A program made the position numbers and the translations under genes. Positions 34,107-63,873 of a DNA stretch of 64,000 bases are shown in pieces (position 1 is the first letter of the stretch; every line of letters starts with the position of its first letter). The DNA comes from Siphonodentalium dalli (Eukaryota; Mollusca; Scaphopoda; Gadilida; Siphonodentaliidae). A model generated the notes under the pieces. That model searched no databases, had not been told where the DNA came from, and worked only from the letters and a program-made list of their open reading frames with translations. The stretch covers positions 54,520,025 through 54,584,024 of the forward strand of contig CP136068.1 in assembly GCA_032622095.1 (NCBI GenBank), written 5' to 3'.

Positions 34107-34241
34107 TTATATATAAATATAACATGGTGTCACACCATACACGGTAGGATTATTATATATAAATATAACATGGTGTCACACCATACACGGTAGGATTATA
34201 TATAAATATAACATGGTGTCACACCATACACGGTAGGATTA
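34107..34241. repeat. 46 bp tandem repeat, left part (3 units)
   Basis: The unit contains TATATATAAATATAACATGG, the 15 bp palindrome ATGGTGTCACACCAT and ACGGTAGGATTA. Spacing is 46 bp then 43 bp. The array is cut at 34241 by the Helitron-like insertion and continues at 37073. Confidence 0.9.
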
Positions 34242-37072
34242 TCTATATCTATATTTGCGAATGTCTGTCTGTCTGTCTGTCTGTGTTCTATCGAAATTCA
34301 CAGGGGACCATCTAGATGATGCCAAAGGGGTCTACTAGGAGTAGCTTTTCACGAGAAAGATAATGGTCGGGGTTAGAATTTTATAAAGTGACGCCGTTGT
34401 TGTCAGGGGCAGAAAAGGGGGAGAGGCAGAACATTTTTTTGTCGCCGATTGCCACCAAACTTATATATAATCATCCCCATAATATGAGGAATCTAATGGC
34501 GTGGTTTAAATATGCAAAAGTCGCGCCGTTCGCGTCAGGGGTGCCCGGAAGGCGGGGGGACAGATGATTTTTTTTCTGTCGCCGATTGCCACGAAACTTA
34601 CATATAATCATCCCCATGATATGAAGAATCCAATGGTGTGGTTTAAATATATCAAAAGTGGCGTCGTTTGAGTCAGGGATGAACGGAAGGGGAGAGGGCC
34701 ACCAAAATTGATAAAACTAATTTTAGCGCCGATTTCCACCAAATTGATATATATTCTTCTTCATGATACAAGGAATCTAATTGTGCGATTTAACAACGCC
34801 AAATTGTTGTTTTGGGATGAGAGATTGGGAGGGGGGTGGGGACTAAATTTGCTAATAAGTCGCCGATATTGCCACCACATTTATACAAAATCATCCCCAT
34901 GGTATGAGGAGCCTGATGGTGTGGCTTTTATCTGTCAAATGTGGCCTCATTCGAGTCAGGATTGCATTGAAAGGGACAGGGGCATCAAAATTGATGCACA
35001 ATGTTTTTAGCGCCAATTTCCACCAAATTGATACACTTTCTTATCCATGATACGAGGAATCTAATCGTGATTTAAAAACGCCATAGTGGTGCTGTGAGAG
35101 ATGGAGAGGGGAGGGATTGGCACCTAATTTGATAAAAAAATTGTTTAGTCGCCGATTATCATCAAACTTATAAACAATCATCTCCATGATATCAGGAGTG
35201 TAATCGTGTGGTTTAAGGATGTCACAAGTAGGGCCATTCGAGTCAGTGGTGTATAGAGATGAGAGGGACACAACAAATTATATCGATATGTTTAGTGCCG
35301 ATTTCCGCCAGATTGATACATATTCTTCTCCGTGATACGAGGAATCTTATCGTGTGGTTTAGATACACCAAATTGGTGCCATATGGGTGAGAGATATCGG
35401 GACCTTAAATTTGATACGAATTTGTATACTCGCCAATTTTCACCAAGTTCATATATATGCATCTCTAATCTCTAATGAGTCTTAGTGTGTGCAGCTTGAG
35501 TCCGAAATAGGGACGGGAGGGTCACAAAAACTGATACAAAATATTTTTAGTACCAATTACCATCAAATTCAGACACGTTCTTCTCAAATGATACAAGAAA
35601 TAAAATCGTGCTGTCTGTCTGTCTTTTTGTCTGTCTGTGTGCGTTCTATATATAACTTCACACGGTACAATCGAGATGGCACCAAGGCGTTCTAAGATGG
35701 GTAGCTTTTTACAAGGAAGATAATGGTGCGGGTTAAAATTTTCTAAAATGACGCTGTTGGTGGGTGAGGATATTTAAAAAATATGGTGAAATAGTTTTTT
35801 CGCTGATTTCCACCAAACGAATACATAATCACCTTCGCAATATGGCGTTGTTCGAGTCAGCGTTGCATCAACAATTGATTAAATAAACCAAATTCCCCAA
35901 AATTCATACACGTTTTTCTCTAATGATATACCATGAATTAAATCACATTTGGTGTCGTTTGCGTCACGGATGGCGAGCGGATATGCACTATCATTGATAA
36001 GATTGCTATTCGCCGATATCCGCATATAAGTTATATACAGTCACCAGGCCATCTCCATATCATTTTAAGTAGTTGGGCGTTCACATTTCATAATCCCGAC
36101 ATATGGTGACCCACATAAGTCACTTGAACAATTATATCTTCTTAAAAGTCATATTTATATGGGAATGGCAATCAAAGCATTCACACAATGATCTAGCAAA
36201 AAGAGATAACTAGAAGAAGCATTAAACGTATATTTATCATTCTATTGAAGAGATATATATATATATTCGTGCAAACTGAGAGACATCGAACCGTCAGAGG
36301 ATTGCATAGATATAATAACAAAATTTAGTCTGTTCCATTCAATACAGTTTCCACAAAAAGTTACAATTTGTCAAGAGATATGGAAGGCCTGTTCAAAATA
36401 GTGGTCACAGTGTGCAGTCAAATATAGTTTCTTCTGATATACAAGAAAATTCAGTTAGTAGCACAAGACTTTTCAGGATTCTACCAATACTGACATCTGA
36501 CAAGGGTTTTAGAACAGACTCATCGACTGACATAAACAACTCAAAATCTCGCTCTGTGCCTGGCACATGTAGCTGATATATGTGCGCAGCAACATTTCGT
36601 TTAAACTAAGAATATTTAGCCAATATATAGCACCATGAACAGAGGAGCACCTGGAAATTTCTTTGAAACATCTGTATCTTCATGGATATATGATAGCCAC
36701 GTGTCCTCGAGATCTTAGTCCAACCCACTAGATTGATTGATACATCTCAATATGTAAAACCCAATTATCATCTTTTATCGAACTAATGTGTATATGATGT
36801 TCATGTATCATATTATAATGTCTAATGTATACGCAGTTGTAAATAAATAAATACTTCATTATTGGTGGAACAGATTAATCGCGATAAACAGAATGACAAT
36901 TGACAAGGTGACCACTACTTATATTCCATGACTGTAATAATCATGTTTTGTGATGCTATTTGAATATACAATTTATGAGAAAACGTATAACAATTTAAGC
37001 AAGAGCATTCTCTATTCCCAACAAATATCCACAGCATACATTAACCTGTGCAACGCCGGGTAACCCTGCTAG
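34242..37072 (+). mobile_element. Helitron-like non-autonomous element, 2.83 kb, apparently complete
   Basis: It begins TC (after A) with TCTATATCTATATTTGCGAA and a TCTG microsatellite, and ends GCCGGGTAACCCTGCTAG before T. GGGTAACCC is a small hairpin just before the CTAG end. The body is a diverged tandem array of ~135 bp units, alternating GTCGCCGATTGCCACCAAAC and GCGCCGATTTCCACCAAATT types with ATGATA(C/T)GAGGAATCTAAT and GTCAGGGGTG motifs (about 34440-36010), then about 1 kb of unique AT-rich sequence. A second copy of the 5' module (TCTGTCTGTGT..GTTCTATAT, ATGGCACCAAGG) occurs near 35605-35760. No Rep/helicase frame is present, so it must depend on proteins from elsewhere. Confidence 0.75.
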
Positions 37073-37211
37073 TCATATATAAATATAACATGGTGTCACA
37101 CCATACACGGTAGGATTATTATATATAAATATAACATGGTGTCACACCATACACGGTAGGATTATTATATATAAATATAACATGGTGTCACATCATACAC
37201 GGTAGGATTAT
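37073..37211. repeat. 46 bp tandem repeat, right part (3 units)
   Basis: Same unit and orientation as 34107-34241, including the palindrome (one unit has ACATCAT instead of ACACCAT). With the left part it would form a single six-unit array without the insertion. Confidence 0.9.
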
Positions 37212-38143
37212 CATACATTTGTTATCGCAATTATATTTTTATCATGAAATCCAACAATAGCGAACTTAATAAAATGAGCATGGCGGCTATTTTTGTGACA
37301 TCATCAAATCCAAGCTGCAAAACAGTTCAGTCCCATCGATACGTTATGTCTGAACGCTGCCGGCATGTGTATTTATATTCTTAAAGTTAAAATTCATTCT
37401 GGCTTGATCTAGACAATTTTCAAATGAATATGTAATGTTCAGTTTCTCAGAATAATGCAGAATGAATTGTAACCTGCAAAAATCTCAAATAAATAAATGT
37501 GACAGTTTTTCACATTACGTGTCGGTGCGGCCAGCGATAAGTCCTGCGTAGGGGACTGAACTCTGCATGAATCTTGCATCAGACCACCCAGTCGCGACCA
37601 CAGGGAGTCTAAAAAATATTTGTTTCTGAACTATATACCATATACTTGCTCATGAGCATTGTCTCTATCTTTGTTCATAATTTTCCCACGGGAGTCGAAA
37701 ACCGAAAATAAGCGACTCTACTAGCCATGCTTATAAGTTCTTGACTATATAAGAGAAGGAAACGTGTGATAGTACAGATAAGAGGCACACATCTCTGCAC
37801 ATATTCCCTTATAACGCGAACTGTTATATAAGGCCGCATTGTGATGTCGTGGTCACGTGATATTTTCGTAGGTCACGTGTGTCTCTAACTACGATATTTT
37901 AACAAATATTAATATAAAGATGAAATTCAAATACAGCAACTTACCCAGCATGATATGTTCATCACAAGCTTATAACATAACAAAGTAGAAAAATACCCAA
38001 AAATACGGTTATACAGGGGTTATAGATTGAAGATGGCCACCAAGATCACGTGACCACTATGGGGTGGCCAACATGGTTGCAGCAGTCAATAGGTATATAT
38101 TACCGTCTAAATATAATTATCGACATAAAGACATTTTGCAATA
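37212..38143. other. Intergenic, no recognisable feature
   Basis: No gene or repeat recognised. Confidence 0.5.
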
Positions 38144-39608: not shown

Positions 39609-42600
39609 CTATATTTGATGACTTAAATAATTGCTGCCACGTTTCCATTTGAAGTCTAAAACAAACGATGTGCCTCTGTGGTGGTGGTATGATGTGCCTC
39701 TATGGTGGTGGTATGATGTGCCTCTATGGTGGTGGTATGATGTGCCTCTATGGTGGTGGTATGATGTGCCTCTATGGTGGTGGTATGATGTGCCTCTATT
39801 GTGGTGGTATGATGTGCCTCTATGGTGGTGGTATGATGTGCCTCTATGGTGGTGGTATGATGTGCCTCTATGGTGGTGGTATGATGTGCCTCTATGGTGG
39901 TGGTATGATGTGCCTCTATGGTGGTGGTGGTATGATGTGCCTCTATGGTTGTGGTATGATGTGCCTCTATGGTGGTGGTATGATGTGCCTCTATGGTGGT
40001 GGTATGATGTGCCTCTATGGTGGTGGTATGATGTGCCTCTATGGTGGTGGTATGATGTGCCTCTATGGTGGTGGTATGATGTGCCTCTATGGTGGTGGTA
40101 TGATGTGCCTCTATGGTGGTGGTATGATGTGCCTCTATGGTGGTGGTGGTGGTATGATGTGCCTCTATGGTGGTGGTATGATGTGCCTCTATGGTGGTGG
40201 TGGTGGTATGATGTGCCTCTATTGTGGTGGTATGATGTGCCTCTATGGTGGTGGTGGTGGTATGATGTGCCTCTATGGTGGTGGTATGATGTGCCTCTAT
40301 GGTGGTGGTATGATGTGCCTCTATGGTGGTGGTATGATGTGCCTCTATGGTGGTGGTGGTGGTATGATGTGCCTCTATGGTGGTGGTATGATGTGCCTCT
40401 ATGGTGGTGGTATGATGTGCCTCTGTGGTGGTGGTATGATGTGCCTCTATGGTGGTGGTATGATGTGCCTCTATGGTGGTGGTATGATGTGCCTCTATGG
40501 TGGTGGTATGATGTGCCTCTATGGTGGTGGTATGATTTGCCTCTATGGTGGTGGTATGATGTGCCTCTATGGTGGTGGTATGATGTGCCTCTATGGTGGT
40601 GGTATGATGTGCCTCTATGGTGGTGGTATGATGTGCCTCTATGGTGGTGGTATGATGTGCCTCTGTGGTGGTGGTATGATGTGCCTCTGTGGTGGTGGTA
40701 TGATGTGCCTCTATGGTGGTGGTATGATGTGCCTCTATGGTGGTGGTATGATGTGCCTCTATGGTGGTGGTATGATGTGCCTCTATGGTGGTGGTATGAT
40801 GTGCCTCTATGGTGGTGGTATGATGTGCCTCTGTGGTGGTGGTATGATGTGCCTCTATGGTGGTGGTGGTATGATGTGCCTCGATGGTGGTGGTATGATG
40901 TGCCTCTATGGTGGTGGTATGATGTGCCTCTGTGGTGGTGGTATGATGTGCCTCTGTGGTGGTGGTATGATGTGCCTCTATGGTGGTGGTATGATGTGCC
41001 TCTATGGTGGTGGTATGATGTGCCTCTATGGTGGTGGTATGATGTGCCTCTATGGTGGTGGTATGATGTGCCTCTATGGTGGTGGTATGATGTGCCTCTA
41101 TGGTGGTGGTATGATGTGCCTCTATGGTGGTGGTATGATGTGCCTCTATGGTGGTGGTATGATGTGCCTCTATGGTGGTGGTATGATTTGCCTCTATGGT
41201 GGTGGTATGATGTGCCTCTATGGTGGTGGTATGATGTGCCTCTATTGTGGTGGTATGATGTGCCTCTATGGTGGTGGTATGATGTGCCTCTGTGGTGGTG
41301 GTATGATGTGCCTCTATGGTGGTGGTATGATGTGCCTCTGTGGTGGTGGTATGATGTGCCTCTATGGTGGTGGTATAATGTGCCTCTGTGGTGGTGGTAT
41401 GATGTGCCTCTATTGTGGTGGTATAATGTGCCTTTGTGGTGGTGGTATGATGTGCCTCTGTCGTGGTGGTATGATGTGCCTCTATGGTGGTGGTATGATG
41501 TGCCTCTATGGTGGTGGTATGATGTGCCTCTATGGTGGTGGTATGATGTGCCTCTATGGTGGTGGTATGATGTGCCTCTATGGTGGTGGTATGATGTGCC
41601 TCTATGGTGGTGGTATGATTTGCCTCTATGGTGGTGGTATGATGTGCCTCTATGGTGGTGGTATGATGTGCCTCTATTGTGGTGGTATGATGTGCCTCTA
41701 TGGTGGTGGTATGATGTGCCTCTGTGGTGGTGGTATGATGTGCCTCTATGGTGGTGGTATGATGTGCCTCTATGGTGGTGGTATGATGTGCCTCTATGGT
41801 GGTGGTATGATGTGCCTCTATGGTGGTGGTATGATGTGCCTCTGTGGTGGTGGTATGATGTGCCTCTATGGTGGTGGTATGATGTGCCTCTATGGTGGTG
41901 GTATGATGTGCCTCTATTGTGGTGGTATGATGTGCCTCTATGGTGGTGGTATGATGTGCCTCTATGGTGGTGGTATGATGTGCCTCTATGGTGGTGGTAT
42001 GATGTGCCTCTGTGGTGGTGGTATGATGTGCCTCTATGGTGGTGGTATAATGTGCCTCTGTGGTGGTGGTATGATGTGCCTCTATTGTGGTGGTATAATG
42101 TGCCTTTGTGGTGGTGGTATGATGTGCCTCTGTCGTGGTGGTATGATGTGCCTCTATGGTGGTGGTATGATGTGCCTCTATGGTGGTGGTATGATGTGCC
42201 TCTATGGTGGTGGTATGATGTGCCTCTATTGTGGTGGTATGATGTGCCTCTATTGTGGTGGTATAATGTGCCTCTGTGGTGGTGGTATGATGTGCCTCTG
42301 TCGTGGTGGTATGATGTGCCTCTATGGTGGTGGTATGATGTGCCTCTGTTGTGGTGGTATGATGTGCCTCTGTGGTGGTGGTATGATGTGCCTCTATGGT
42401 GGTGGTATGATGTGCCTCTATGGTGGTGGTATGATGTGCCTCTATTGTGGTGGTATGATGTGCCTCTATGGTGGTGGTGGTATGATGTGCCTCTATGGTG
42501 GTGGTATGATGTGCCTATATGGTGGTGGTATGATGTGCCTCTATGGTGGTGGTATGATGTGCCTCTATGGTGGTGGTATGATGTGCCTCTATGGTGGTGG

Positions 42601-45600
42601 TATGATGTGCCTCTATGGTGGTGGTATGATGTGCCTCTATTGTGGTGGTATGATGTGCCTCTATGGTGGTGGTGGTATGATGTGCCTCTATGGTGGTGGT
42701 ATGATGTGCCTCTATGGTGGTGGTATGATGTGCCTCTATTGTGGTGGTATGATGTGCCTCTATGGTGGTGGTATGATGTGCCTCTATGGTGGTGGTATGA
42801 TGTGCCTCTATGGTGGTGGTGGTATGATGTGCCTCTATGGTGGTGGTATGATGTGCCTCTGTGGTGGTGGTATGATGTGCCTCTATGGTGGTGGTATGAT
42901 GTGCCTCCGTGGTGGTGGTATGATGTGCCTCTATTGTGGTGGTATGATGTGCCTCTGTGGTGGTGGTATGATGTGCCTCTATGGTGGTGGTATGATGTGC
43001 CTCTATGGTGGTGGTATGATGTGCCTCTATTGTGGTGGTATGATGTGCCTCTGTGGTGGTGGTATGATGTGCCTCTATGGTGGTGGTATGATGTGCCTCT
43101 GTGGTGGTGGTATGATGTGCCTCTGTGGTGGTGGTATGATGTGCCTCTATTGTGGTGGTATGATGTGCCTCTGTGGTGGTGGTATGATGTGCCTCTGTGG
43201 TGGTGGTATGATGTGCCTCTATGGTGGTGGTATGATGTGCCTCCGTGGTGGTGGTATGATGTGCCTCTATTGTGGTGGTATGATGTGCCTCTATGGTGGT
43301 GGTATGATGTGCCTCTATGGTGGTGGTGGTATGATGTGCCTCTATGGTGGTGGTATGATGTGCCTCTATGGTGGTGGTATGATGTGCCTCTGTGGTGGTG
43401 GTATGATGTGCCTCTATGGTGGTGGTATGATGTGCCTCTGTGGTGGTGGTATGATGTGCCTCTATGGTGGTGGTATGATGTGCCTCTGTGGTGGTGGTAT
43501 GATGTGCCTCTATGGTGGTGGTATGATGTGCCTCTATGGTGGTGGTATGATGTGCCTCTATGGTGGTGGTATAATGTGCCTCTGTGGTGGTGGTATGATG
43601 TGCCTCTATGGTGGTGGTATGATGTGCCTCTATTGTGGTGGTATGATGTGCCTCTATGGTGGTGGTATGATGTGCCTCTATTGTGGTGGTATGATGTGCC
43701 TCTATTGTGGTGGTATGATGTGCCTCTATTGTGGTGGTATGATGTGCCTCTATGGTGGTGGTATGATGTGCCTCTATTGTGGTGGTATGATGTGCCCCTA
43801 TTGTGGTGGTATGATGTGCCTCTATGGTGGTGGTATGATGTGCCTCTATTGTGGTGGTATGATGTGCCTCTATGGTGGTGGTATGATGTGCCTCTATGGT
43901 GGTGGTATGATGTGCCTCTATGGTGGTGGTATGATGTGCCTCTGTGGTGGTGGTATGATGTGCCTCTATGGTGGTGGTATGATGTGCCTCTATTGTGGTG
44001 GTATAATGTGCCTCTGTGGTGGTGGTATGATGTGCCTCTATGGTGGTGGTATGATGTGCCTCTATTGTGGTGGTATGATGTGCCTCTATTGTGGTGGTAT
44101 GATGTGCCTCTATGGTGGTGGTATGATGTGCCTCTATTGTGGTGGTATGATGTGCCCCTATTGTGGTGGTATGATGTGCCTCTATGGTGGTGGTATGATG
44201 TGCCTCTATTGTGGTGGTATGATGTGCCTCTATGGTGGTGGTATGATGTGCCTCTATGGTGGTGGTATGATGTGCCTCTATGGTGGTGGTATGATGTGCC
44301 TCTGTGGTGGTGGTATGATGTGCCTCTATGGTGGTGGTATGATGTGCCTCTATTGTGGTGGTATAATGTGCCTCTGTGGTGGTGGTATGATGTGCCTCTA
44401 TGGTGGTGGTATGATGTGCCTCTATGGTGGTGGTATGATGTGCCTCGATGGTGGTGGTATGATGTGCCTCTATTGTGGTGGTATGATGTGCCTCTATTGT
44501 GGTGGTATGATGTGCCTCTATTGTGGTGGTATAATGTGCCTCTATGGTGGTGGTATGATGTGCCTCTGTGGTGGTGGTATGATGTGCCTCTATGGTGGTG
44601 GTATGATGTGCCTCTATGGTGGTGGTATGATGTGCCTCTATGGTGGTGGTATAATGTGCCTCTGTGGTGGTGGTATGATGTGCCTCTATGGTGGTGGTAT
44701 GATGTGCCTCTATGGTGGTGGTATGATGTGCCTCTGTGGTGGTGGTATGATGTGCCTCTATGGTGGTGGTATGATGTGCCTCTATGGTGGTGGTATAATG
44801 TGCCTCTGTGGTGGTGGTATGATGTGCCTCTATGGTGGTGGTATGATGTGCCTCTATTGTGGTGGTATGATGTGCCTCTATGGTGGTGGTATGATGTGCC
44901 TCTATTGTGGTGGTATAATGTGCCTCTGTGGTGGTGGTATGATGTGCCTCTATGGTGGTGGTATGATGTGCCTCTGTGGTGGTGGTATGATGTGCCTCTA
45001 TGGTGGTGGTATGATGTGCCTCTGTGGTGGTGGTATGATGTGCCTCTATGGTGGTGGTGGTATGATGTGCCTCTGTGGTGGTGGTATGATGTGCCTCTAT
45101 GGTGGTGGTATGATGTGCCTCTATGGTTGTGGTATGGTGTGCCTCTATGGTGGTGGTATGATGTGCCTCTATGGTGGTGGTATGATGTGCCTCTATGGTG
45201 GTGGTATGATTTGCCTCTATGGTGGTGGTATGATGTGCCTCTATGGTGGTGGTATGATGTGCCTCTGTTGTGGTGGTATGATGTGCCTCTATGGTGGTGG
45301 TATGATGTGCCTCTATGGTGGTGGTATGATTTGCCTCTATGGTGGTGGTATGATTTGCCTCTATGGTGGTGGTATGATGTGCCTCTATGGTGGTGGTATG
45401 ATGTGCCTCTGTTGTGGTGGTATGATGTGACCCTGTGGTGGTGGTATGATGTGCCTCTATGGTGGTGGTATGATGTGCCTCTATGGTGGTGGTATGATGT
45501 GCCTCTGTGGTGGTGGTATGATGTGCCTCTATGGTGGTGGTATGATGTGCCTCTATGGTGGTGGTATGATGTGCCTCTATGGTGGTGGTATGATGTGCCT

Positions 45601-48600
45601 CTATGGTGGTGGTATGATGTGCCTCTATGGTGGTGGTATGATGTGCATCTATTGTGGTGGTATGATGTGCCTCTATGGTGGTGGTATGATGTGCCTCTGT
45701 GGTGGTGGTATGATGTGCCTCTGTGGTGGTGGTATGATGTGCCTCTGTGGTGGTGGTATGATGTGCCTCTGTGGTGGTGGTATGATTTGCCTCTATGGTG
45801 GTGGTATGATTTGCCTCTATGGTGGTGGTATGATGTGCCTCTATGGTGGTGGTATGATGTGCCTCTGTTGTGGTGGTATGATGTGACCCTGTGGTGGTGG
45901 TATGATGTGCCTCTATGGTGGTGGTATGATGTGCCTCTATGGTGGTGGTATGATGTGCCTCTGTGGTGGTGGTATGATGTGCCTCTATGGTGGTGGTATG
46001 ATGTGCCTCTATGGTGGTGGTATGATGTGCCTCTATGGTGGTGGTATGATGTGCCTCTATGGTGGTGGTATGATGTGCCTCTATGGTGGTGGTATGATGT
46101 GCATCTATTGTGGTGGTATGATGTGCCTCTATGGTGGTGGTATGATGTGCCTCTGTGGTGGTGGTATGATGTGCCTCTGTGGTGGTGGTATGATGTGCCT
46201 CTATGGTGGTGGTATGATTTGCCTCTATGGTGGTGGTATGATGTGCATCTATGGTGGTGGTATGATGTGCCTCTATGGTGGTGGTGGTATGATGTGCCTC
46301 TATGGTGGTGGTATGATGTGCCTCTATGGTGGTGGTGGTATGATGTGCCTCTATGGTGGTGGTATGATGTGCCTCTATGGTGGTGGTGGTATGATGTGCC
46401 TCTATGGTGGTGGTATGATGTGCCTCTATGGTGGTGGTATGATGTGCCTCTATGGTGGTGGTGGTGGTGGTATGATGTGCCTCTATGGTGGTGGTATGAT
46501 GTGCCTCTATGGTGGTGGTATGATGTGCCTCTATGGTGGTGGTGGTATGATGTGCCTCTATGGTGGTGGTATGATGTGCCTCTATGGTGGTGGTGGTATG
46601 ATGTGCCTCTATGGTGGTGGTATGATGTGCCTCTATGGTGGTGGTATGATGTGCCTCTATGGTGGTGGTATGATGTGCCTCTATGGTGGTGGTGGTATGA
46701 TGTGCCTCTATGGTGGTGGTATGATGTGCCTCTATGGTGGTGGTGGTATGATGTGCCTCTATGGTGGTGGTATGATGTGCCTCTATGGTGGTGGTATGAT
46801 GTGCCTCTATGGTGGTGGTATGATGTGCCTCTATGGTGGTGGTATGATGTGCCTCTATGGTGGTGGTATGATGTGCCTCTATGGTGGTGGTATGATGTGC
46901 CTCTATGGTGGTGGTATGATGTGCCTCTATGGTGGTGGTATGATGTGCCTCTATGGTGGTGGTATGATGTGCCTCTATGGTGGTGGTATGATGTGCCTCT
47001 GTTGTGGTGGTATGATGTGCCTCTATGGTGGTGGTATGATTTGCCTCTATGGTGGTGGTATGATGTGCCTCTATGGTGGTGGTATGATGTGCCTCTATGG
47101 TGGTGGTATGATGTGCCTCTATGGTGGTGGTATGATGTGCCTCTATGGTGGTGGTATGATGTGCCTCTATGGTGGTGGTATGATTTGCCTCTATGGTGGT
47201 GGTATGATGTGCCTCTATGGTGGTGGTATGATGTGCCTCTATTGTGGTGGTATGATGTGCCTCTATGGTGGTGGTATGATGTGCCTCTGTGGTGGTGGTA
47301 TGATGTGCCTCTATGGTGGTGGTATGATTTGCCTATATGGTGGTGGTATGATGTGCCTCTATGGTGGTGGTATGATGTGCCTCTATGGTGGTGGTATGAT
47401 GTGCCTCTGTGGTGGTGGTATGATGTGCCTCTATGGTGGTGGTATGATGTGCCTCTATGGTGGTGGTATGATGTGCCTCTATTGTGGTGGTATGATGTGC
47501 CTCTATGGTGGTGGTATGATGTGCCTCTATGGTGGTGGTATGATGTGCCTCTATGGTGGTGGTATGATGTGCCTCTGTGGTGGTGGTATGATGTGCCTCT
47601 ATGGTGGTGGTATGATGTGCCTCTGTGGTGGTGGTATGATGTGCCTCTATTGTGGTGGTATAATGTGCCTCTGTGGTGGTGGTATGATGTGCCTCTGTCG
47701 TGGTGGTATGATGTGCCTCTATGGTGGTGGTATGATGTGCCTCTATGGTGGTGGTATGATGTGCCTCTATGGTGGTGGTATGATGTGCCTCTATTGTGGT
47801 GGTATGATGTGCCTCTATTGTGGTGGTATAATGTGCCTCTGTGGTGGTGGTATGATGTGCCTCTGTCGTGGTGGTATGATGTGCCTCTATGGTGGTGGTA
47901 TGATGTGCCTCTGTTGTGGTGGTATGATGTGCCTCTGTGGTGGTGGTATGATGTGCCTCTATGGTGGTGGTATGATGTGCCTCTATGGTGGTGGTATGAT
48001 GTGCCTCTATTGTGGTGGTATGATGTGCCTCTATGGTGGTGGTGGTATGATGTGCCTCTATGGTGGTGGTATGATGTGCCTCTATGGTGGTGGTATGATG
48101 TGCCTCTATGGTGGTGGTATGATGTGCCTCTATGGTGGTGGTGGTATGATGTGCCTCTATGGTGGTGGTATGATGTGCCTCTGTGGTGGTGGTATGATGT
48201 GCCTCTATGGTGGTGGTATGATGTGCCTCCGTGGTGGTGGTATGATGTGCCTCTATTGTGGTGGTATGATGTGCCTCTGTGGTGGTGGTATGATGTGCCT
48301 CTGTGGTGGTGGTATGATGTGCCTCTATGGTGGTGGTATGATGTGCCTCTGTGGTGGTGGTATGATGTGCCTCTGTGGTGGTGGTATGATGTGCCTCTAT
48401 TGTGGTGGTATGATGTGCCTCTGTGGTGGTGGTATGATGTGCCTCTGTGGTGGTGGTATGATGTGCCTCTATGGTGGTGGTATGATGTGCCTCCGTGGTG
48501 GTGGTATGATGTGCCTCTATTGTGGTGGTATGATGTGCCTCTATGGTGGTGGTATGATGTGCCTCTGTGGTGGTGGTATGATGTGCCTCTATGGTGGTGG

Positions 48601-51600
48601 TATGATGTGCCTCTGTGGTGGTGGTATGATGTGCCTCTATGGTGGTGGTATGATGTGCCTCTGTGGTGGTGGTATGATGTGCCTCTATGGTGGTGGTATG
48701 ATGTGCCTCTATGGTGGTGGTATGATGTGCCTCTATGGTGGTGGTATAATGTGCCTCTGTGGTGGTGGTATGATGTGCCTCTATGGTGGTGGTATGATGT
48801 GCCTCTATGGTGGTGGTATGATGTGCCTCTATTGTGGTGGTATGATGTGCCTCTATTGTGGTGGTATGATGTGCCTCTATGGTGGTGGTATGATGTGCCT
48901 CTATTGTGGTGGTATGATGTGCCTCTATTGTGGTGGTATGATGTGCCTCTATGGTGGTGGTATGATGTGCCTCTATTGTGGTGGTATGATGTGCCCCTAT
49001 TGTGGTGGTATGATGTGCCTCTATGGTGGTGGTATGATGTGCCTCTATGGTGGTGGTATGATGTGCCTCTATGGTGGTGGTATGATGTGCCTCTATGGTG
49101 GTGGTATGATGTGCCTCTGTGGTGGTGGTATGATGTGCCTCTATGGTGGTGGTATGATGTGCCTCTATTGTGGTGGTATGATGTGCCTCTATGGTGGTGG
49201 TATGATGTGCCTCTATTGTGGTGGTATGATGTGCCTCTGTGGTGGTGGTATGATGTGCCTCTATGGTGGTGGTATGATGTGCCTCTGTGGTGGTGGTATG
49301 ATGTGCCTCTATGGTGGTGGTATGATGTGCCTCTGTGGTGGTGGTATGATGTGCCTCTATGGTGGTGGTATGATGTGCCTCTATGGTGGTGGTATGATGT
49401 GCCTCTATGGTGGTGGTATAATGTGCCTCTGTGGTGGTGGTATGATGTGCCTCTATGGTGGTGGTATGATGTGCCTCTATGGTGGTGGTATGATGTGCCT
49501 CTATTGTGGTGGTATGATGTGCCTCTATTGTGGTGGTATGATGTGCCTCTATGGTGGTGGTATGATGTGCCTCTATTGTGGTGGTATGATGTGCCTCTAT
49601 TGTGGTGGTATGATGTGCCTCTATTGTGGTGGTATGATGTGCCTCTATGGTGGTGGTATGATGTGCCTCTATTGTGGTGGTATGATGTGCCCCTATTGTG
49701 GTGGTATGATGTGCCTCTATGGTGGTGGTATGATGTGCCTCTATGGTGGTGGTATGATGTGCCTCTATGGTGGTGGTATGATGTGCCTCTATGGTGGTGG
49801 TATGATGTGCCTCTGTGGTGGTGGTATGATGTGCCTCTATTGTGGTGGTATGATGTGCCTCTATTGTGGTGGTATGATGTGCCTCTATGGTGGTGGTATG
49901 ATGTGCCTCTATTGTGGTGGTATGATGTGCCCCTATTGTGGTGGTATGATGTGCCTCTATGGTGGTGGTATGATGTGCCTCTATGGTGGTGGTATGATGT
50001 GCCTCTATGGTGGTGGTATGATGTGCCTCTATGGTGGTGGTATGATGTGCCTCTGTGGTGGTGGTATGATGTGCCTCTATGGTGGTGGTATGATGTGCCT
50101 CTATTGTGGTGGTATAATGTGCCTCTGTGGTGGTGGTATGATGTGCCTCTATGGTGGTGGTATGATGTGCCTCTATTGTGGTGGTATGATGTGCCTCTAT
50201 TGTGGTGGTATGATGTGCCTCTATGGTGGTGGTATGATGTGCCTCTATTGTGGTGGTATGATGTGCCCCTATTGTGGTGGTATGATGTGCCTCTATGGTG
50301 GTGGTATGATGTGCCTCTATTGTGGTGGTATGATGTGCCTCTATGGTGGTGGTATGATGTGCCTCTATGGTGGTGGTATGATGTGCCTCTATGGTGGTGG
50401 TATGATGTGCCTCTGTGGTGGTGGTATGATGTGCCTCTATGGTGGTGGTATGATGTGCCTCTATTGTGGTGGTATAATGTGCCTCTGTGGTGGTGGTATG
50501 ATGTGCCTCTATGGTGGTGGTATGATGTGCCTCTATGGTGGTGGTATGATGTGCCTCGATGGTGGTGGTATGATGTGCCTCTATTGTGGTGGTATGATGT
50601 GCCTCTATGGTGGTGGTATGATGTGCCTCTATGGTGGTGGTATGATGTGCCTCTATGGTGGTGGTATGATGTGCCTCTATGGTGGTGGTATGATTTGCCT
50701 CTATGGTGGTGGTATGATGTGCCTCTATGGTGGTGGTATGATGTGCCTCTATTGTGGTGGTATGATGTGCCTCTATGGTGGTGGTATGATGTGCCTCTGT
50801 GGTGGTGGTATGATGTGCCTCTATGGTGGTGGTATGATTTGCCTATATGGTGGTGGTATGATGTGCCTCTATGGTGGTGGTATGATGTGCCTCTATGGTG
50901 GTGGTATGATGTGCCTCTGTGGTGGTGGTATGATGTGCCTCTATGGTGGTGGTATGATGTGCCTCTATGGTGGTGGTATGATGTGCCTCTATTGTGGTGG
51001 TATGATGTGCCTCTATGGTGGTGGTATGATGTGCCTCTATGGTGGTGGTATGATGTGCCTCTATGGTGGTGGTATGATGTGCCTCTGTGGTGGTGGTATG
51101 ATGTGCCTCTATGGTGGTGGTATAATGTGCCTCTGTGGTGGTGGTATGATGTGCCTCTATTGTGGTGGTATAATGTGCCTCTGTGGTGGTGGTATGATGT
51201 GCCTCTGTCGTGGTGGTATGATGTGCCTCTATGGTGGTGGTATGATGTGCCTCTATGGTGGTGGTATGATGTGCCTCTATGGTGGTGGTATGATGTGCCT
51301 CTATTGTGGTGGTATGATGTGCCTCTATTGTGGTGGTATAATGTGCCTCTGTGGTGGTGGTATGATGTGCCTCTGTCGTGGTGGTATGATGTGCCTCTAT
51401 GGTGGTGGTATGATGTGCCTCTGTTGTGGTGGTATGATGTGCCTCTGTGGTGGTGGTATGATGTGCCTCTATGGTGGTGGTATGATGTGCCTCTATGGTG
51501 GTGGTATGATGTGCCTCTATTGTGGTGGTATGATGTGCCTCTATGGTGGTGGTGGTATGATGTGCCTCTATGGTGGTGGTATGATGTGCCTCTATGGTGG

Positions 51601-54600
51601 TGGTATGATGTGCCTCTATGGTGGTGGTATGATGTGCCTCTATGGTGGTGGTGGTATGATGTGCCTCTATGGTGGTGGTATGATGTGCCTCTGTGGTGGT
51701 GGTATGATGTGCCTCTATGGTGGTGGTATGATGTGCCTCCGTGGTGGTGGTATGATGTGCCTCTATTGTGGTGGTATGATGTGCCTCTGTGGTGGTGGTA
51801 TGATGTGCCTCTGTGGTGGTGGTATGATGTGCCTCTATGGTGGTGGTATGATGTGCCTCTGTGGTGGTGGTATGATGTGCCTCTGTGGTGGTGGTATGAT
51901 GTGCCTCTATTGTGGTGGTATGATGTGCCTCTGTGGTGGTGGTATGATGTGCCTCTGTGGTGGTGGTATGATGTGCCTCTATGGTGGTGGTATGATGTGC
52001 CTCCGTGGTGGTGGTATGATGTGCCTCTATTGTGGTGGTATGATGTGCCTCTATGGTGGTGGTATGATGTGCCTCTGTGGTGGTGGTATGATGTGCCTCT
52101 ATGGTGGTGGTATGATGTGCCTCTGTGGTGGTGGTATGATGTGCCTCTATGGTGGTGGTATGATGTGCCTCTGTGGTGGTGGTATGATGTGCCTCTATGG
52201 TGGTGGTATGATGTGCCTCTATGGTGGTGGTATGATGTGCCTCTATGGTGGTGGTATAATGTGCCTCTGTGGTGGTGGTATGATGTGCCTCTATGGTGGT
52301 GGTATGATGTGCCTCTATGGTGGTGGTATGATGTGCCTCTATTGTGGTGGTATGATGTGCCTCTATTGTGGTGGTATGATGTGCCTCTATGGTGGTGGTA
52401 TGATGTGCCTCTATTGTGGTGGTATGATGTGCCTCTATTGTGGTGGTATGATGTGCCTCTATTGTGGTGGTATGATGTGCCTCTATGGTGGTGGTATGAT
52501 GTGCCTCTATTGTGGTGGTATGATGTGCCCCTATTGTGGTGGTATGATGTGCCTCTATGGTGGTGGTATGATGTGCCTCTATTGTGGTGGTATGATGTGC
52601 CTCTATGGTGGTGGTATGATGTGCCTCTGTGGTGGTGGTATGATGTGCCTCTATGGTGGTGGTATGATGTGCCTCTATGGTGGTGGTATGATGTGCCTCT
52701 ATGGTGGTGGTATGATGTGCCTCTATGGTGGTGGTATGATGTGCCTCTGTGGTGGTGGTATGATGTGCCTCTATGGTGGTGGTATGATGTGCCTCTATTG
52801 TGGTGGTATAATGTGCCTCTGTGGTGGTGGTATGATGTGCCTCTATGGTGGTGGTATGATGTGCCTCTATTGTGGTGGTATGATGTGCCTCTATTGTGGT
52901 GGTATGATGTGCCTCTATGGTGGTGGTATGATGTGCCTCTATTGTGGTGGTATGATGTGCCCCTATTGTGGTGGTATGATGTGCCTCTATGGTGGTGGTA
53001 TGATGTGCCTCTATTGTGGTGGTATGATGTGCCTCTATGGTGGTGGTATGATGTGCCTCTATGGTGGTGGTATGATGTGCCTCTATGGTGGTGGTATGAT
53101 GTGCCTCTGTGGTGGTGGTATGATGTGCCTCTATGGTGGTGGTATGATGTGCCTCTATTGTGGTGGTATAATGTGCCTCTGTGGTGGTGGTATGATGTGC
53201 CTCTATGGTGGTGGTATGATGTGCCTCTATGGTGGTGGTATGATGTGCCTCGATGGTGGTGGTATGATGTGCCTCTATTGTGGTGGTATGATGTGCCTCT
53301 ATTGTGGTGGTATGATGTGCCTCTATTGTGGTGGTATAATGTGCCTCTATGGTGGTGGTATGATGTGCCTCTGTGGTGGTGGTATGATGTGCCTCTATGG
53401 TGGTGGTATGATGTGCCTCTATGGTGGTGGTATGATGTGCCTCTATGGTGGTGGTATAATGTGCCTCTGTGGTGGTGGTATGATGTGCCTCTATGGTGGT
53501 GGTATGATGTGCCTCTATGGTGGTGGTATGATGTGCCTCTGTGGTGGTGGTATGATGTGCCTCTATGGTGGTGGTATGATGTGCCTCTATGGTGGTGGTA
53601 TAATGTGCCTCTGTGGTGGTGGTATGATGTGCCTCTATGGTGGTGGTATGATGTGCCTCTATTGTGGTGGTATGATGTGCCTCTATGGTGGTGGTATGAT
53701 GTGCCTCTATTGTGGTGGTATAATGTGCCTCTGTGGTGGTGGTATGATGTGCCTCTATGGTGGTGGTATGATGTGCCTCTGTGGTGGTGGTATGATGTGC
53801 CTCTATGGTGGTGGTATGATGTGCCTCTGTGGTGGTGGTATGATGTGCCTCTATGGTGGTGGTGGTATGATGTGCCTCTATGGTGGTGGTATGATGTGCC
53901 TCTGTGGTGGTGGTATGATGTGCCTCTATGGTGGTGGTATGATGTGCCTCTATGGTTGTGGTATGGTGTGCCTCTATGGTGGTGGTATGATGTGCCTCTA
54001 TGGTGGTGGTATGATGTGCCTCTATGGTGGTGGTATGATGTGCCTCTATGGTGGTGGTATGATGTGCCTCTGTGGTGGTGGTATGATGTGCCTCTATGGT
54101 GGTGGTATGATGTGCCTCTGTGGTGGTGGTATGATGTGCCTCTATGGTGGTGGTATGATGTGCCTCTATGGTTGTGGTATGGTGTGCCTCTATGGTGGTG
54201 GTATGATGTGCCTCTATGGTGGTGGTATGATGTGCCTCTATGGTGGTGGTATGATGTGCCTCTATGGTGGTGGTATGATGTGCCTCTGTGGTGGTGGTGT
54301 GATGTGCATCTGTGGTGGTGGTGGTATGATGTGCCTCTGTGATAGTGGTATGATGTGCCTCTATGGTGGTGGTATGATGTGCCTCTATGGTGGTGGTATG
54401 ATGTGCCTCTATGGTGGTGGTATGATGTGCCTCTGTTGTGGTGGTATGATGTGCCTCTATGGTGGTGGTATGATGTGCCTCTATGGTGGTGGTATGATTT
54501 GCCTCTATGGTGGTGGTATGATTTGCCTCTATGGTGGTGGTATGATGTGCCTCTATGGTGGTGGTATGATGTGCCTCTGTTGTGGTGGTATGATGTGACC

Positions 54601-57002
54601 CTGTGGTGGTGGTATGATGTGCCTCTATGGTGGTGGTATGATGTGCCTCTATGGTGGTGGTATGATGTGCCTCTATGGTGGTGGTGGTATGATGTGCCTC
54701 TATGGTGGTGGTATGATGTGCATCTATGGTGGTGGTATGATGTGCCTCTATGGTGGTGGTGGTATGATGTGCCTCTATGGTGGTGGTATGATGTGCCTCT
54801 ATGGTGGTGGTGGTATGATGTGCCTCTATGGTGGTGGTATGATGTGCCTCTATGGTGGTGGTGGTATGATGTGCCTCTATGGTGGTGGTATGATGTGCCT
54901 CTATGGTGGTGGTATGATGTGCCTCTATGGTGGTGGTATGATGTGCCTCTATGGTGGTGGTGGTGGTGGTATGATGTGCCTCTATGGTGGTGGTATGATG
55001 TGCCTCTATGGTGGTGGTATGATGTGCCTCTATGGTGGTGGTGGTATGATGTGCCTCTATGGTGGTGGTATGATGTGCCTCTATGGTGGTGGTGGTATGA
55101 TGTGCCTCTATGGTGGTGGTATGATGTGCCTCTATGGTGGTGGTATGATGTGCCTCTATGGTGGTGGTATGATGTGCCTCTATGGTGGTGGTATGATGTG
55201 CCTCTATGGTGGTGGTGGTATGATGTGCCTCTATGGTGGTGGTATGATGTGCCTCTATGGTGGTGGTATGATGTGCCTCTATGGTGGTGGTATGATGTGC
55301 CTCTATGGTGGTGGTATGATGTGCCTCTATGGTGGTGGTATGATGTGCCTCTATGGTGGTGGTGGTATGATGTGCCTCTATGGTGGTGGTATGATGTGCC
55401 TCTATGGTGGTGGTATGATGTGCCTCTATGGTGGTGGTATGATGTGCCTCTATGGTGGTGGTGGTATGATGTGCCTCTATGGTGGTGGTATGATGTGCCT
55501 CTATGGTGGTGGTATGATGTGCCTCTATGGTGGTGGTATGATGTGCCTCTGTGGTGGTGGTATGATGTGCCTCTATGGTGGTGGTATGATGTGCCTCTAT
55601 GGTGGTGGTATGATGTGCCTCTATGGTGGTGGTGGTATGATGTACCTCTATGGTGGTGGTATGATGTGCCTCTATGGTGGTGGTGGTATGATGTGCCTCT
55701 GTGGTGGTGGTATGATGTGCCTCTATGGTGGTGGTATGATGTGCCTCTATGGTGGTGGTATGATGTGCCTCTATGGTGGTGGTATGATGTGCCTCTATGG
55801 TGGTGGTATGATGTGCCTCTATGGTGGTGGTATGATGTGCCTCTATGGTGGTGGTGGTATGATGTGCCTCTATGGTGGTGGTATGATGTGCCTCTATGGT
55901 GGTGGTATAATGTGCCTCTGTGGTGGTGGTATGATGTGCCTCTATGGTGGTGGTATGATGTGCCTCTATGGTGGTGGTATGATGTGCCTCTGTTGTGGTG
56001 GTATGATGTGCCTCTGTGGTGGTGGTATGATGTGCCTCTATGGTGGTGGTGGTGGTATGATGTGCCTCTGTGGTGGTGGTATGATGTGCCTCTATGGTGG
56101 TGGTGGTGGTATGATGTGCCTCGATGGTGGTGGTATGATGTGCCTCGATGGTGGTGGTATGATGTGCCTCGATGGTGGTGGTATGATGTGCCTCTATGGT
56201 GGTGGTGGTGGTATGATGTGCCTCTATGGTGGTGGTGGTGGTATGATGTGCCTCTATGGTGGTGGTGGTGGTATGATGTGCCTCTGTGGTGGTGGTATGA
56301 TGTGCCTCTATGGTGGTGGTGGTGGTATGATGTGCCTCGATGGTGGTGGTATGATGTGCCTCGATGGTGGTGGTATGATGTGCCTCGATGGTGGTGGTAT
56401 GATGTGCCTCTATGGTGGTGGTATGATGTGCCTCTATGGTGGTGGTATGATGTGCCTCTGTTGTGGTGGTATGATGTGCCTCTGTGGTTGTGGTATGATG
56501 TGCCTCTATGGTGGTGGTATGATGTGCCTCTGTGGTGGTGGTATGATGTGCCTCTGTGGTGGTGGTGGTATGATGTGCCTCTATGGTGGTGGTATGATGT
56601 GCCTCTGTGGTGGTGGTATGATGTGCCTCTGTGGTGGTGGTATGATGTGCCTCTATGGTGGTGGTGGTGGTATGATGTGCCTCTATGGTGGTGGTATGAT
56701 GTGCCTCTATGGTGGTGGTATGATGTGCCTCTGTGGTGGTGGTATGATGTGCCTCTATGGTGGTGGTGGTGGTATGATGTGCCTCGATGGTGGTGGTATG
56801 ATGTGCCTTTATGGTGGTGGTGGTGGTATGATGAGCATCTATGGTGGTGGTGGTATGATGTGCCTCTATGGTGGTGGTATGATGTGCCTCTATGGTGGTG
56901 GTGGTGGTGGGATGATGAGCCTCTATGGTGGTGGTATGATGTGCCTCTATGGTGGTGGTATGATTGGCTACTAACTTGCGGTGCTATGTCTAATAACATA
57001 TG
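39609..57002 (-). other. Uninterrupted minus-strand frame through the giant array (RGTSYHHH)n; coding status doubtful
   Basis: A frame of nearly 5800 codons reads the repeat as Ser-Tyr-His-His-His-Arg-Gly-Thr. The first ATG gives MLLDIAPQVSSQ before the repeats (no clear signal peptide), and the end is SFVLDFKWKRGSNYLSHQI after them. His runs vary from 2 to 6. Many substitutions are silent in this frame (CAT/CAC, AGA/CGA), but His to Asn and other replacements are also common. Three of its eight codons are one substitution from a stop and none has become one, whereas two plus-strand frames do contain stops. That is suggestive only: homogenisation by duplication would also spread stop-free units. 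I see no promoter or splice evidence. If translated it would be a huge His-rich, metal-binding-type protein. Confidence 0.2.
39667..56966. repeat. Giant 24 bp minisatellite, about 17.3 kb, about 700 units
   Basis: The unit is TATGATGTGCCTCTATGGTGGTGG, in one orientation throughout and without any interruption by other sequence. Length variants are always in steps of 3 (27, 30, 36 bp) from TGG expansion. Point variants include CTGTGG, CTATTGTGG, CTGTCGTGG, CTCCGTGG, CTCGATGG, GATTTGCC, GTATAATG and GTGACCC. Rare variants recur at fixed offsets, showing multi-kilobase higher-order duplication (47.2-50.6 kb and 50.7-54.1 kb are 3510 bp apart; a related block lies at 41.6-45.4 kb). The plus strand is G/T-rich with GGTGGTGG in every unit. 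Four of six frames are open by construction. Confidence 0.98.
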
Positions 57003-57014
57003 AAGTTTCAACAA

Positions 57015-57681
57015 ATTATTCCAAGTGATACTTGAGATACACTATGTTACACATATACACCTATAATGCTTATATACATGTTTGGTATGCTTAGCAGTGG
57101 GGAATCCATCTGCGGTGTCGAGCGGCAGCGAAAGAGTTAATACAACAATGAATCTGAGCCATCGAGTAGTTACTTGGGTAGGCTTTAGCCTATTCGGGCG
57201 TATGATCGGACGGGTGAATGGTGAATACTAACGCATAGAAACTGTAATATACGTCAGGGACTCAATATCGTTCAACTTCGTGAAATGGCCCCAATGTCGA
57301 CATTGGTTCACTTCCAGGTTCCCCATATTTCTGACCCATATACCCTTATTTCAAAACAAACTCTGGTAAAAGTCAGGTAAACAACGGTTTACATGGATCG
57401 AGTACCGGGCACTCTGGTAAAGTCAGGTAAACAATTATACACTCTGGTAAAAACCATGTAATGTCCATGTAAAAAGGACATATACCCTTATAAATTCCAT
57501 GTCAATCCATGGTGTACCCCATTTTACTCTCGTAAAATGCTGGTGAAACGGGACATACATGGGCAATACAATTATTGTCGCCAGTTGATAATTTGCTATA
57601 TAACATATATACCCTGTTATAGTGAGCGGATTAGAGTGAACTACAAAAGAACGTATGCAGGATATACTGCTTTTGTGTTAA
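57015..57681. other. Intergenic with short CTCTGGTAAA motif repeats
   Basis: CACTCTGGTAAA and GTCAGGTAAACAA recur about three times between 57360 and 57460. No gene recognised. Confidence 0.5.
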
Positions 57682-58201
57682 AGATGGATTATCTCTTTAA
57701 ATAACAAATTTTAAATAGTTGCGTGGGTATAAAATAATAGATATGAACTGAAGACCTATGTCCGGAAAAGCTTCTATCAATTAATATTGATTTTATTTCG
57801 AATATTAAATCGGGCCCATTTATGTTACTATTTTTAGAACCGACCATTCGGATGAGACCGTATTGCGATATAGAGCACTGGGCTGTTCCTACGGCTACGC
57901 AACGAATTTCAAATGTCACAGATTGGTTGTGTGTACTGTTTTGTTCCACAGATATAAGCGATAATGAGTATAATTAACGTTTATTTGTGACAAAATTGCA
58001 CAATATAATTTCTGGTCTCTGTTAACAGTAACCACTATTGTTCGTTAGCTGAACAAACACACCTTTTTAGACCAGAAAATATTAGAAATAAAATTAATAT
58101 TAATCGATAGAAGCATTTCCGGACAGGAGTCTTCGATTCAAATCTAATATTTTATACCCCGGTAACTATATATTACATGTTTACAACGAGATAATCCACC
58201 T
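57682..58201. mobile_element. 520 bp TTAA-flanked MITE, copy 2
   Basis: TTAA at 57678-57681 and 58202-58205. Ends AGATGGATTATCTCTTT and GAGATAATCCACCT. It has the same length (520 bp), orientation and sequence as 27520-28039 apart from scattered substitutions, so both inserted recently from one source. Confidence 0.9.
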
Positions 58202-58514
58202 TTAACATCCATTTAGATATAATGTTGACAATCCACAATGTATGTATTCATATCCCATTTTAAACAAGAAAATACTGATTATCTTTGACAAAAAATAATA
58301 TAATTAAAATAGACGTCGAATTGTTCATTAGTAATTGTTCCCATATACTTGTATTCTGAACGGAGAGACAGTAATACGTTCTTATTTAACTGCTCTTTTT
58401 TAAATTTAAGAAACTGTTGAATGGCCCTGCTCGCAGTGTTTGTGGATCCTGATTACAGTGGTTGCCTTTCTATGAAATGTTAACGACTACAGGTGGTCTT
58501 GCGTCTAGTGGATA
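58202..58514. other. Intergenic, no recognisable feature
   Basis: Nothing supportable seen. Confidence 0.5.
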
Positions 58515-59989: not shown

Positions 59990-61090
59990 ATTTGTCAAAT
60001 TGTGTCACCTATTTGTGTGTTTCATAATTGTTTTCAAATATCGTCTGTATAAGTATGTATAAGTTTTGTGGAAATAGGCGACAAAAATAATTAATCATTT
60101 TTGCTACAGTTTTTCTTCCCCTGACCCCAACAACGTCACTTTAGAAAACTTGACCCACATAATTATCTTTCTGTAAAAAAAAGTTACCCCTGTTAGACCC
60201 CTTTGGTGCCATATAGATGGTTCCCCGTTAAGTTATATAGAACACAGGCAGACATTCGCAAATATAGGCACCAAATGTGGCGTCTTTAACACACACGATT
60301 TGATTGCTCGTATCATTGGACAAGATCGCGTATGAATTTGGTGGAAATTGTCGCTAAACATGTTTTTAGAATTTTTTGTGACCCCCCCCCCCCCCCCCCC
60401 CCCCCACCCACTCCCTATCTCTGAATCAAGCGCACACTTTTGACATCTTTAAACCACACAATTATACTCATTATGAAGATGACTATATATAAAATTAGTG
60501 GTAATCGGCGACTAAATAAATTCTTGTCAAATTTGGTGCACCCCACCCCCATCTCTCACCCAGACGGTACCAATTTGGCATCTTTAAATCACACGATTAG
60601 ATTACTCGTATCATCGAGAGAAATGTGTATCAATTTGGTAAAAATCGGGCGCTAAAAATATTTTTAATTTTTTTGTGCCCCTCTCCCCTTCAGCGCAGCC
60701 CTGACCAGAATGACGCCACTTTTGACAGCTTTAAGCCACACCATTAGACTCTTGATATCATGGATAGTATTAAGTATAAGTCTGGTTGTAATCGGCGACT
60801 AAACAAATTCTTTAAAATTTTGTGACCCCCATCTCTCATCCAAACATCAACAATTTGGCGTCTTTAAATCGGGTATATCGTGGGGAATATGTATCAATTT
60901 GGTGGAAATCAGCGCTAAAATATTTGTATCAATGTTGATGCCCCTCTCACATTCCGTGCGCCCCTGACTCGAATGGCGGCACGTTTGACAACTTTAAACG
61001 AACCATTATATTCCTCATATCGTGGAGATGATTGTGTATAAGTTTTGTGGAAATCTGCGACAAAAATTTGTGCTGCCCCTCCCCTTTTAT
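59990..61090 (-). mobile_element. Degraded relative of the 34.2 kb Helitron-like element
   Basis: On the minus strand, ~135 bp units of the GTCGCCGATT(A/T)CCAC and GCGC(C)GATTT(C/T)(T/C)ACCAAATTGATAC types (61090 to 60270) are followed by the 5' module CTATATTTGCGAATGTCTGC, GTGTTCTATATAACTTAA and AAAGGGGTCTAACAGGGG (60268 downward). A long C run interrupts at about 60381-60405. The order repeats-then-5'-module matches the interior of the 34.2 kb element near 35.6 kb. No CTAG terminus was identified. Confidence 0.65.
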
Positions 61091-61679: not shown

Positions 61680-63873
61680 GGAAGTGTCTATATACCATCG
61701 GATGGCAAATAGCGATTCTACCGATATGCGCTATTTACCATCCGATGGTATTTTAAAGAAAAACAAATAGCATATCATCACAATACACTCCTATAATGAC
61801 AATTACTACACACCTTCTTGGTAAATAGGCCCAGTTGACCCTCGGTTGACCACCTACAGATATCCTGGGGGGATGGTACGCAAAAAATGACAAATTTTGA
61901 AGGAAATTTCGTATAGTTTGAGTATTTAGTGGCACAAGCTGTCGCTTTATGCCCACATAATCACCATTCCTACCCGCCTTACAGAAAACCCCGACCAGTT
62001 GACCCTCGGTTGACCACCTACAGATATCCTGGGGGGATGGCACGCAAAAAATGACCAATTTTGAAGGAAATTTCGTATAGTTTGAGTATTTAGTGGCACA
62101 AGCTGTCGCTTTTTGTCCACATAATCACCATTCTTACCCGCCTTACAGAAAACCCGGACCAGTTGACCCTCGGTTGACCACCTACAGATATCCTGGGGGG
62201 ATGGTACGTACAAAATGACAAATTTTGAAGGAAATTTCGTATAGTTTGAGTATTTAGTGGCACAAGCTGTCGCTTTATGCCCACATAATCACCATTACTA
62301 CCCGCCTTACAGAAAACCCGGACCAGTGGACCCTCGGTTGACCACCTACATATATCCTGGGGGGATGGTACGCAAAAAATGACAAATTTTGAAGGAAATT
62401 TCGTATAGTTTGAGTATTTAGTGGCACAAGCTGTCGCTTTTTGTCCACATAATCACCATTCCTACCCGCCTTACAGAAAACCCGGACCAGTTGACCCTCG
62501 GTTGACCACCTACATATATCCTGGGGGGATGGTACGTAAAAAATGACCAATTTTGAATAATGGAGCCTTTTTTCGAAAGTGATTTGAAAATGAACGACTT
62601 TTCTCGAACAGGTCGATTTGGACCCGTTTTGGACTCCGTTTCGTGTGTAGCATAACGGGGAATTTATGAATTAGTATTTGAATAAGACGTGATAAAGTTA
62701 CGGCCGCGTCTTTGATACGGAGTATATATATATAAAGGATTATTTTTGCAGAACTTTTTCGCTTCACTGAGAGAAAATTGCTTTTCTAAGTGCAAAATTT
62801 TAGGTGGAATTATTTTTTGACTTTTTGAGGCGTGAAAAGAAAATGAGGTCGATTCGAAAAGGACAAGATTTGAAACACTTTTGGACTGGCATTCCTTCAA
62901 ACCCAAGTCCCCGTTTAGTGTGTGGCATGAGGCGAGCAATGACGAAAAAAAGCGACAGCTTGTGCCACTAAATACTCAAACTATACGAAATTTCCTTCAA
63001 AATTGGTCATTTTTTACGTACCATCCCCCCAGGATATCTGTAGGTGGTCAACCGAGGGTCAACTGGTCCGGGTTTTCTGTAAGGCGGGTAGGAATGGTGA
63101 TTATGTGGGCATAAAGCGACAGCTTGTGCCACTAAATACTCAAACTATACGAAATTTCCTTCAAAATTGGTCATTTTTTGCGTACCATCCCCCCAGGATA
63201 TATGTAGGTGGTCAACCGAGGGTCAACTGGTCCGGGTTTTCTGTAAGGCGGGTAGGAATGGTGATTATGTGGGCATAAAGCGACAGCTTGTGCCACTAAA
63301 TACTCAAACTATACGAAATTTCCTTCAAAATTGGTCATTTTTTACGTACCATCCCCCAGGATATCTGTAGGTGGTCAACCGAGGGTCAACTGGTCCGGGT
63401 TTTCTGTAAGGCGGGTAGGAATGGTGATTATGTGGACAAAAAGCGACAGCTTGTGCCACTAAATACTCAAACTATACGAAATTTCCTTCAAAATTTGTCA
63501 TTTTTTGCGTACCATCCCCCCAGGGTATCTGTAGGTGGTCAACCGAGGGTCAACTGGTCGGGGTTTTCTGTAAGGCGGGTAGGAATGGTGATTATGTGGG
63601 CATAAAGCGACAGCTTGTGCCACTAAATACTCAAACTATACGAAATTTCCTTCAAAATTGGTCCTTTTTTGCGTACCATCCCCCCAGGATATCTGTAGGT
63701 GGTCAACCGAGGGTCAACTGGGCCTATTTACCAAGAAGGTGTGTAGTAATTGTCATTATAGGAGTGTATTGTGATGATATGCTATTTGTTTTTCTTTAAA
63801 ATACCATCGGATGGTAAATAGCGCATATCGGTAGAATCGCTATTTGCCATCCGATGGTAAATAGCCGCTGCCC
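61680..63873. mobile_element. Foldback transposon, ~2.19 kb, long inverted arms of 164 bp tandem repeats
   Basis: The outer ends are inverted copies: CCATCGGATGGCAAATAGCG, then GATTCTACCGATATGCGC and ATTTACCATCCGATGG on the left; the same order appears on the minus strand at the right. Each ~870-930 bp arm contains five units of ~164 bp marked by TATCCTGGGGGGATGG (about 61864, 62029, 62192, 62356, 62520 and, inverted, about 63031, 63195, 63358, 63522, 63686). A ~400 bp unique centre (62547-62947) separates the arms. TGCGGAAC occurs directly outside both ends (61672-61679, 63874-63881), a candidate 8 bp target duplication. No transposase is present. The design resembles Drosophila FB and sea urchin TU elements (from memory). 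Confidence 0.85.

Follow-up and report, generated by a model that had tools for sequence, protein, structure and literature searches.

The 64-kb window examined here (the whole stretch of DNA that was analysed) contains a long, continuous tandem array of a 24-bp unit, which we interpret as a non-coding minisatellite (VNTR) that most likely occupies a single locus, has grown by slippage of a TGG run together with duplication of blocks of units, and most likely has no selected function. We put the probability of this reading at roughly 85%. The array, large and non-coding, is also young and probably unstable; it is unusually long and otherwise behaves as such repeats are known to. Its 712-unit variant map, sequenced in full in an animal that seems to be a non-model species, provides a natural case of minisatellite growth by nested block duplication, and the array is probably a highly variable marker, though one that alters no general idea. 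The coordinates of the array and its internal features are given in Table 1.

Table 1. Position of the minisatellite array and of the features within it.
Feature	Position	Strand	Basis
24-bp minisatellite array, 712 units, consensus GATGTGCCTCTATGGTGGTGGTAT	39667..56966	+	Tandem Repeats Finder and segmentation
Super-block I, 153 units when aligned with III	41521..45207	+	Unit-string self-alignment
Local duplication, 17 units at 45328-45735 copied exactly at 45784-46191, start 19 units on	45328..46191	+	0 mismatches in 408 bases
Super-block II, 90 units aligned with I; 81 units (47086-49035) aligned with III	47062..49227	+	Unit-string and base alignments
Super-block III, 143 units aligned with I	50596..54036	+	Unit-string and base alignments
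3′ tenth of the array, most TGG-expanded units	55147..56966	+	Decile table, terminal piece excluded

Unit structure and variants of the array

Segmentation assigned all 17,300 bases of the array to head-to-tail units with nothing between them, which bears out the initial annotation in describing a minisatellite of about 700 units free of foreign insertions. Tandem Repeats Finder reported the same array at 39667–56902 (period 24, 711.9 copies, 94% matches, score 29403), with a further 2.6-copy stretch carrying it on to 56964. The segmented units comprise 661 of 24 bp, 34 of 27 bp, 13 of 30 bp, and 3 of 33 bp, plus a terminal 29-base piece that overruns the last full unit by 5 bases, into the flank. 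These units represent 33 sequence types (32 without the terminal piece), with the consensus type accounting for 368 of the 712, and base composition is uniform along the array (GC ~0.50, GC skew ~+0.5, AT skew ~−0.53). Minisatellites, or VNTRs, are recognized by head-to-tail units of 10–100 bp and by interspersed variants whose order is duplicated; the 24-bp unit, repeated 712 times, and the 32 full types arranged in super-blocks display both features. Such an array lies far beyond chance.

Length variation inside the units comes from the TGG run, which has three copies in the standard unit and 4, 5, or 6 in the variants. According to the initial annotation, the length changes are all multiples of 3 bp produced by gain or loss of TGG, and this stands with respect to the multiples of 3 and to gain (50 units are longer than 24 bp), but not with respect to loss, as no unit is shorter. 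The motif GGTGGTGG, proposed to occur in every unit, is not strictly universal either, the TGG run being broken in 126 of the 661 24-bp units, with a run of two remaining in 120 and a run of one in 6. With the terminal 29-base piece excluded, 18 of the 71 units in the last tenth of the array are TGG-expanded, compared to 32 of 640 elsewhere, although the expanded units of the last tenth may partly be copies of one another, such that the 18 should not be read as so many independent events.

Super-blocks and the growth of the array

When each unit is replaced by its type, the resulting string resolves into three related super-blocks of ~153, ~90, and ~143 units (I, II, and III, respectively). 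Local self-alignment of this string, with rare types given more weight, returned five alignments with scores above 40. The strongest joins super-blocks I and III over their full extents (135 of 159 columns identical, score 250.2), compared to top scores of 16.1, 18.7, and 20.3 in three shuffles of the unit order. Super-blocks II and III align at 47086–49035 and 50596–52569 (80 of 82 columns, score 183.8), and I and II at 41497–44076 and 47062–49227 (85 of 109 columns, score 117.6). At a smaller scale, 48436–49587 aligns with 49108–50259 (42 of 52 columns), and the fifth alignment is the exact 17-unit copy at 45328 and 45784. The blocks are both nested and diverged from one another.

Compared unit by unit, with only whole-unit gaps allowed, super-blocks II and III differ by a single substitution in 1944 bases and one unit gap. 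Super-block I is further removed, at 27 substitutions in 3408 bases and 12 unit gaps from III and 10 substitutions in 2160 bases and 17 unit gaps from II (~0.5–0.8% divergence). Base-level alignment with MAFFT gave higher values, with 6 mismatches in 1950 bases for II–III (0.3%), and 70 in 3417 and 45 in 2163 for I–III and I–II, respectively (~2% for super-block I). Gaps in the MAFFT alignments measured 3 bp or multiples of whole units (24, 216, and 408), the exceptions being gaps of 21 and 27, which sum to 48. Given MAFFT sets gaps inside units, its divergences are inflated and the unit-by-unit values are likely closer to the truth. By either alignment, II–III is the youngest block pair, and the near-identity of its two members indicates a recent duplication at the kilobase scale.

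We propose that the array arose from a short 24-bp seed, and two scales of enlargement can be read directly from it. Inside the unit, slippage has extended the (TGG)3 run to 4, 5, or 6 copies, and at the larger scale, blocks ranging from a single unit to ~150 units (~3.5 kb) have been duplicated in register. Block copying of this kind requires homologous pairing of misaligned copies, whether in homology-driven exchange or in replication restart, for which unequal sister exchange, conversion-like transfer, and break-induced replication are all candidate routes, with none of them favored by the sequence. The freedom of the array from transposon insertions could follow from recent copying, which would have left little time to collect them, and no protection mechanism would be needed. 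The presence of a near-identical block pair in one assembly further suggests that the array may be polymorphic in length between individuals.

An assembly artefact, in which the array differs from its real length in either direction and mis-joined reads or merged haplotypes account for the super-blocks, would be compatible with the minisatellite reading and is, in our judgment, unlikely. The array is difficult territory for an assembler, since its longest exact internal repeat spans 1338 bases and only 659 of its 17,250 51-mers are found once, placing it beyond the resolution of short reads; the divergence between super-blocks II and III is also small enough for an assembly duplicate. Against this, 13,351 of the 16,800 501-mers are found once, and therefore long reads could anchor the array. 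Super-block I, moreover, lies both substitutions and whole units away from II and III, and the window contains no N.

A more specific proposal, which we consider quite unlikely, is that kilobase-sized blocks are still being copied in register at this locus, by break-induced replication or sister exchange, making it a hot spot, and that TGG slippage is concentrated toward the 3′ end as replication or breakage enters there. Were this proposal true, the array would naturally record the direction in which the repeat has grown.

Surroundings, coding potential, and DNA structure

Besides the array, the window holds several tandem and dispersed repeats. A second 24-bp minisatellite (unit TCACCTATATGGTTATACTGATGT) occupies 25218–26235 with 42 units and likewise shows a repeated block order, indicating that this mode of growth is not peculiar to the main locus. 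Kinship between the two units was not supported, with the best ungapped rotation matching at 13 of 24 positions, a value reached in 365 of 5000 shuffles. At 31325–32225, the minus strand of a 21-bp minisatellite (~43 units) contains long open frames, and a three-copy tandem repeat of 43–46 bp occurs twice, 3 kb apart, at 34103–34248 and 37075–37215 (96% alike). Downstream, two inverted arrays of a 164-bp unit (61680–62557 and 62996–63872) are 98% alike over 878 bases and carry short palindromes at their outer ends; together, they are perhaps one large inverted-repeat element. A MITE-like element of ~530 bp with ~130-bp terminal inverted repeats is present in two copies, at 57676–58207 and 27516–28043, which are 97.5% alike. 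One of these lies directly upstream of, and slightly overlaps, an open reading frame (ORF) with a reverse-transcriptase match. A Pfam search of seven ORFs of the window identified reverse transcriptase in two and nothing in the other five. The window is therefore eukaryotic and metazoan-like, and the resemblance of its repeats suggests that it is perhaps from a mollusc or some other invertebrate of the sea.

This wealth of repeats bears on whether the array is a local outpost of a genome-wide satellite family, seeded by transposition or extrachromosomal circles. A precedent is reported in the Pacific oyster, where satellite-like arrays are scattered by Helentron elements (PMC7492417, PMC8268682). 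In keeping with such an origin, a diverged repeat with ~140-bp periodicity lies on either side of the array at a distance of 3–4 kb (34262–35844, plus strand; 60054–61088, minus strand; ~70% alike) in opposite orientations, and with this inverted arrangement on both wider flanks, the array could conceivably be linked to a larger element. However, the remaining 46.7 kb of the window contain no unit-like 24-mer when both strands and all rotations are scanned with as many as 6 mismatches allowed, and the immediate flanks share no repeat, with the longest direct and inverted matches between the 400-base flanks (9 and 8 bases, respectively) being nothing beyond chance (7–12 bases in 20 shuffles of the direct comparison). 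On the evidence of this 64-kb window, we therefore regard membership of a satellite family as very unlikely. Viral and prokaryote contigs yielded 0 exact matches to the unit, a result uninformative about animals; the unit sequence had no match as text in papers, and the literature on mollusc and invertebrate minisatellites included no paper on this locus among the matches listed.

For coding potential, we sorted 20 distinct substitutions into silent, replacement, and stop changes in each of the six frames and compared these counts with an even spread at the observed transition share. This is a test of low power, and it gave no clear coding constraint in any of the six frames. In the minus frame YHHHRGTS, 15 replacement and 5 silent changes compare with 14.2 and 4.8 expected (stops 0 against 1.0 expected). 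Two frames depart most from expectation. For the minus frame TTTIEAHH, 14.8 replacement and 5.0 silent changes were expected and 11 and 8 were observed, a modest excess of silent changes, yet this frame gains a stop and is interrupted by stops within the array. One plus frame shows 12 replacements against 14.8 expected, and its unit itself contains a stop. A protein-coding repeat, whether in YHHHRGTS or in the plus frames DVPLWWWY or MCLYGGGM, with TGG steps preserving the frame, is in our judgment highly improbable, and two further points in its favor have simpler explanations: the minus strand at 39609–57041 is open over 5810 codons with no internal stop (unit YHHHRGTS) because the 24-bp unit lacks a stop, and the length changes are all multiples of 3 because they arise by TGG slippage and whole-unit steps.

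The suggestion that a two-tetrad G-quadruplex could form in every unit is not supported on the plus strand, given that GG tracts number three in the standard unit and four or more in only 53 of the 712 units. The plus strand contains 50 two-tetrad sites (four GG tracts, loops of up to 7 nt) and no G3 quadruplex motif with loops of up to 12 nt; a G-quadruplex minisatellite of the CEB1 type, marked by four close G3 tracts, was accordingly rejected for this strand. Formation of R-loops is possible, judging from the strong strand asymmetry. A hairpin-forming repeat was also rejected, as a four-unit stretch (39693–39788) folded as single-strand DNA no better than shuffles (z of −0.05 for the plus strand and 0.88 for the minus strand), and a search of the 64-kb window for structured RNA with Rfam, at the gathering score, gave 0 matches.

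Comparison with known minisatellites

The closest counterparts of the array are found among human single-locus VNTR arrays exceeding 10 kb, for which Table 1 of Warburton et al. 2008 (PMC2588610) lists 11 with units of 20–61 bp and lengths of 10.5–52.9 kb, higher-order structure (HOR) being marked in 5 of the 11. The non-coding minisatellite described here falls within the range of these listed arrays in unit size, length, and organization. The two nearest in unit size in that table (20 and 28 bp) measure 10.8 and 15.5 kb, slightly shorter than the present array. The unit itself is different and the animal group, judging from the transposons in the window, is most likely another; and while the human arrays are single-locus, the uniqueness of this one is judged within the 64-kb window.

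The human FOXF1 minisatellite at 16q24.1, described as having a 33-bp unit and 8.7 kb in the reference (PMC4411736), is similarly a large array of a short unit. It is about half as long as the present array, and its size is reported to vary strongly between individuals and species, a variation that was measured there and is inferred here. Human CEB1 (PMC3486850), for which size-dependent instability is reported in yeast, with rearrangement strongly dependent on G-quadruplexes, likewise is a tandem array with a G-rich strand, but the plus strand of the present array differs in having no G3 motif and few short-loop two-tetrad sites. Taken with these systems, the array belongs to an already known kind of repeat, of which it is a new example.
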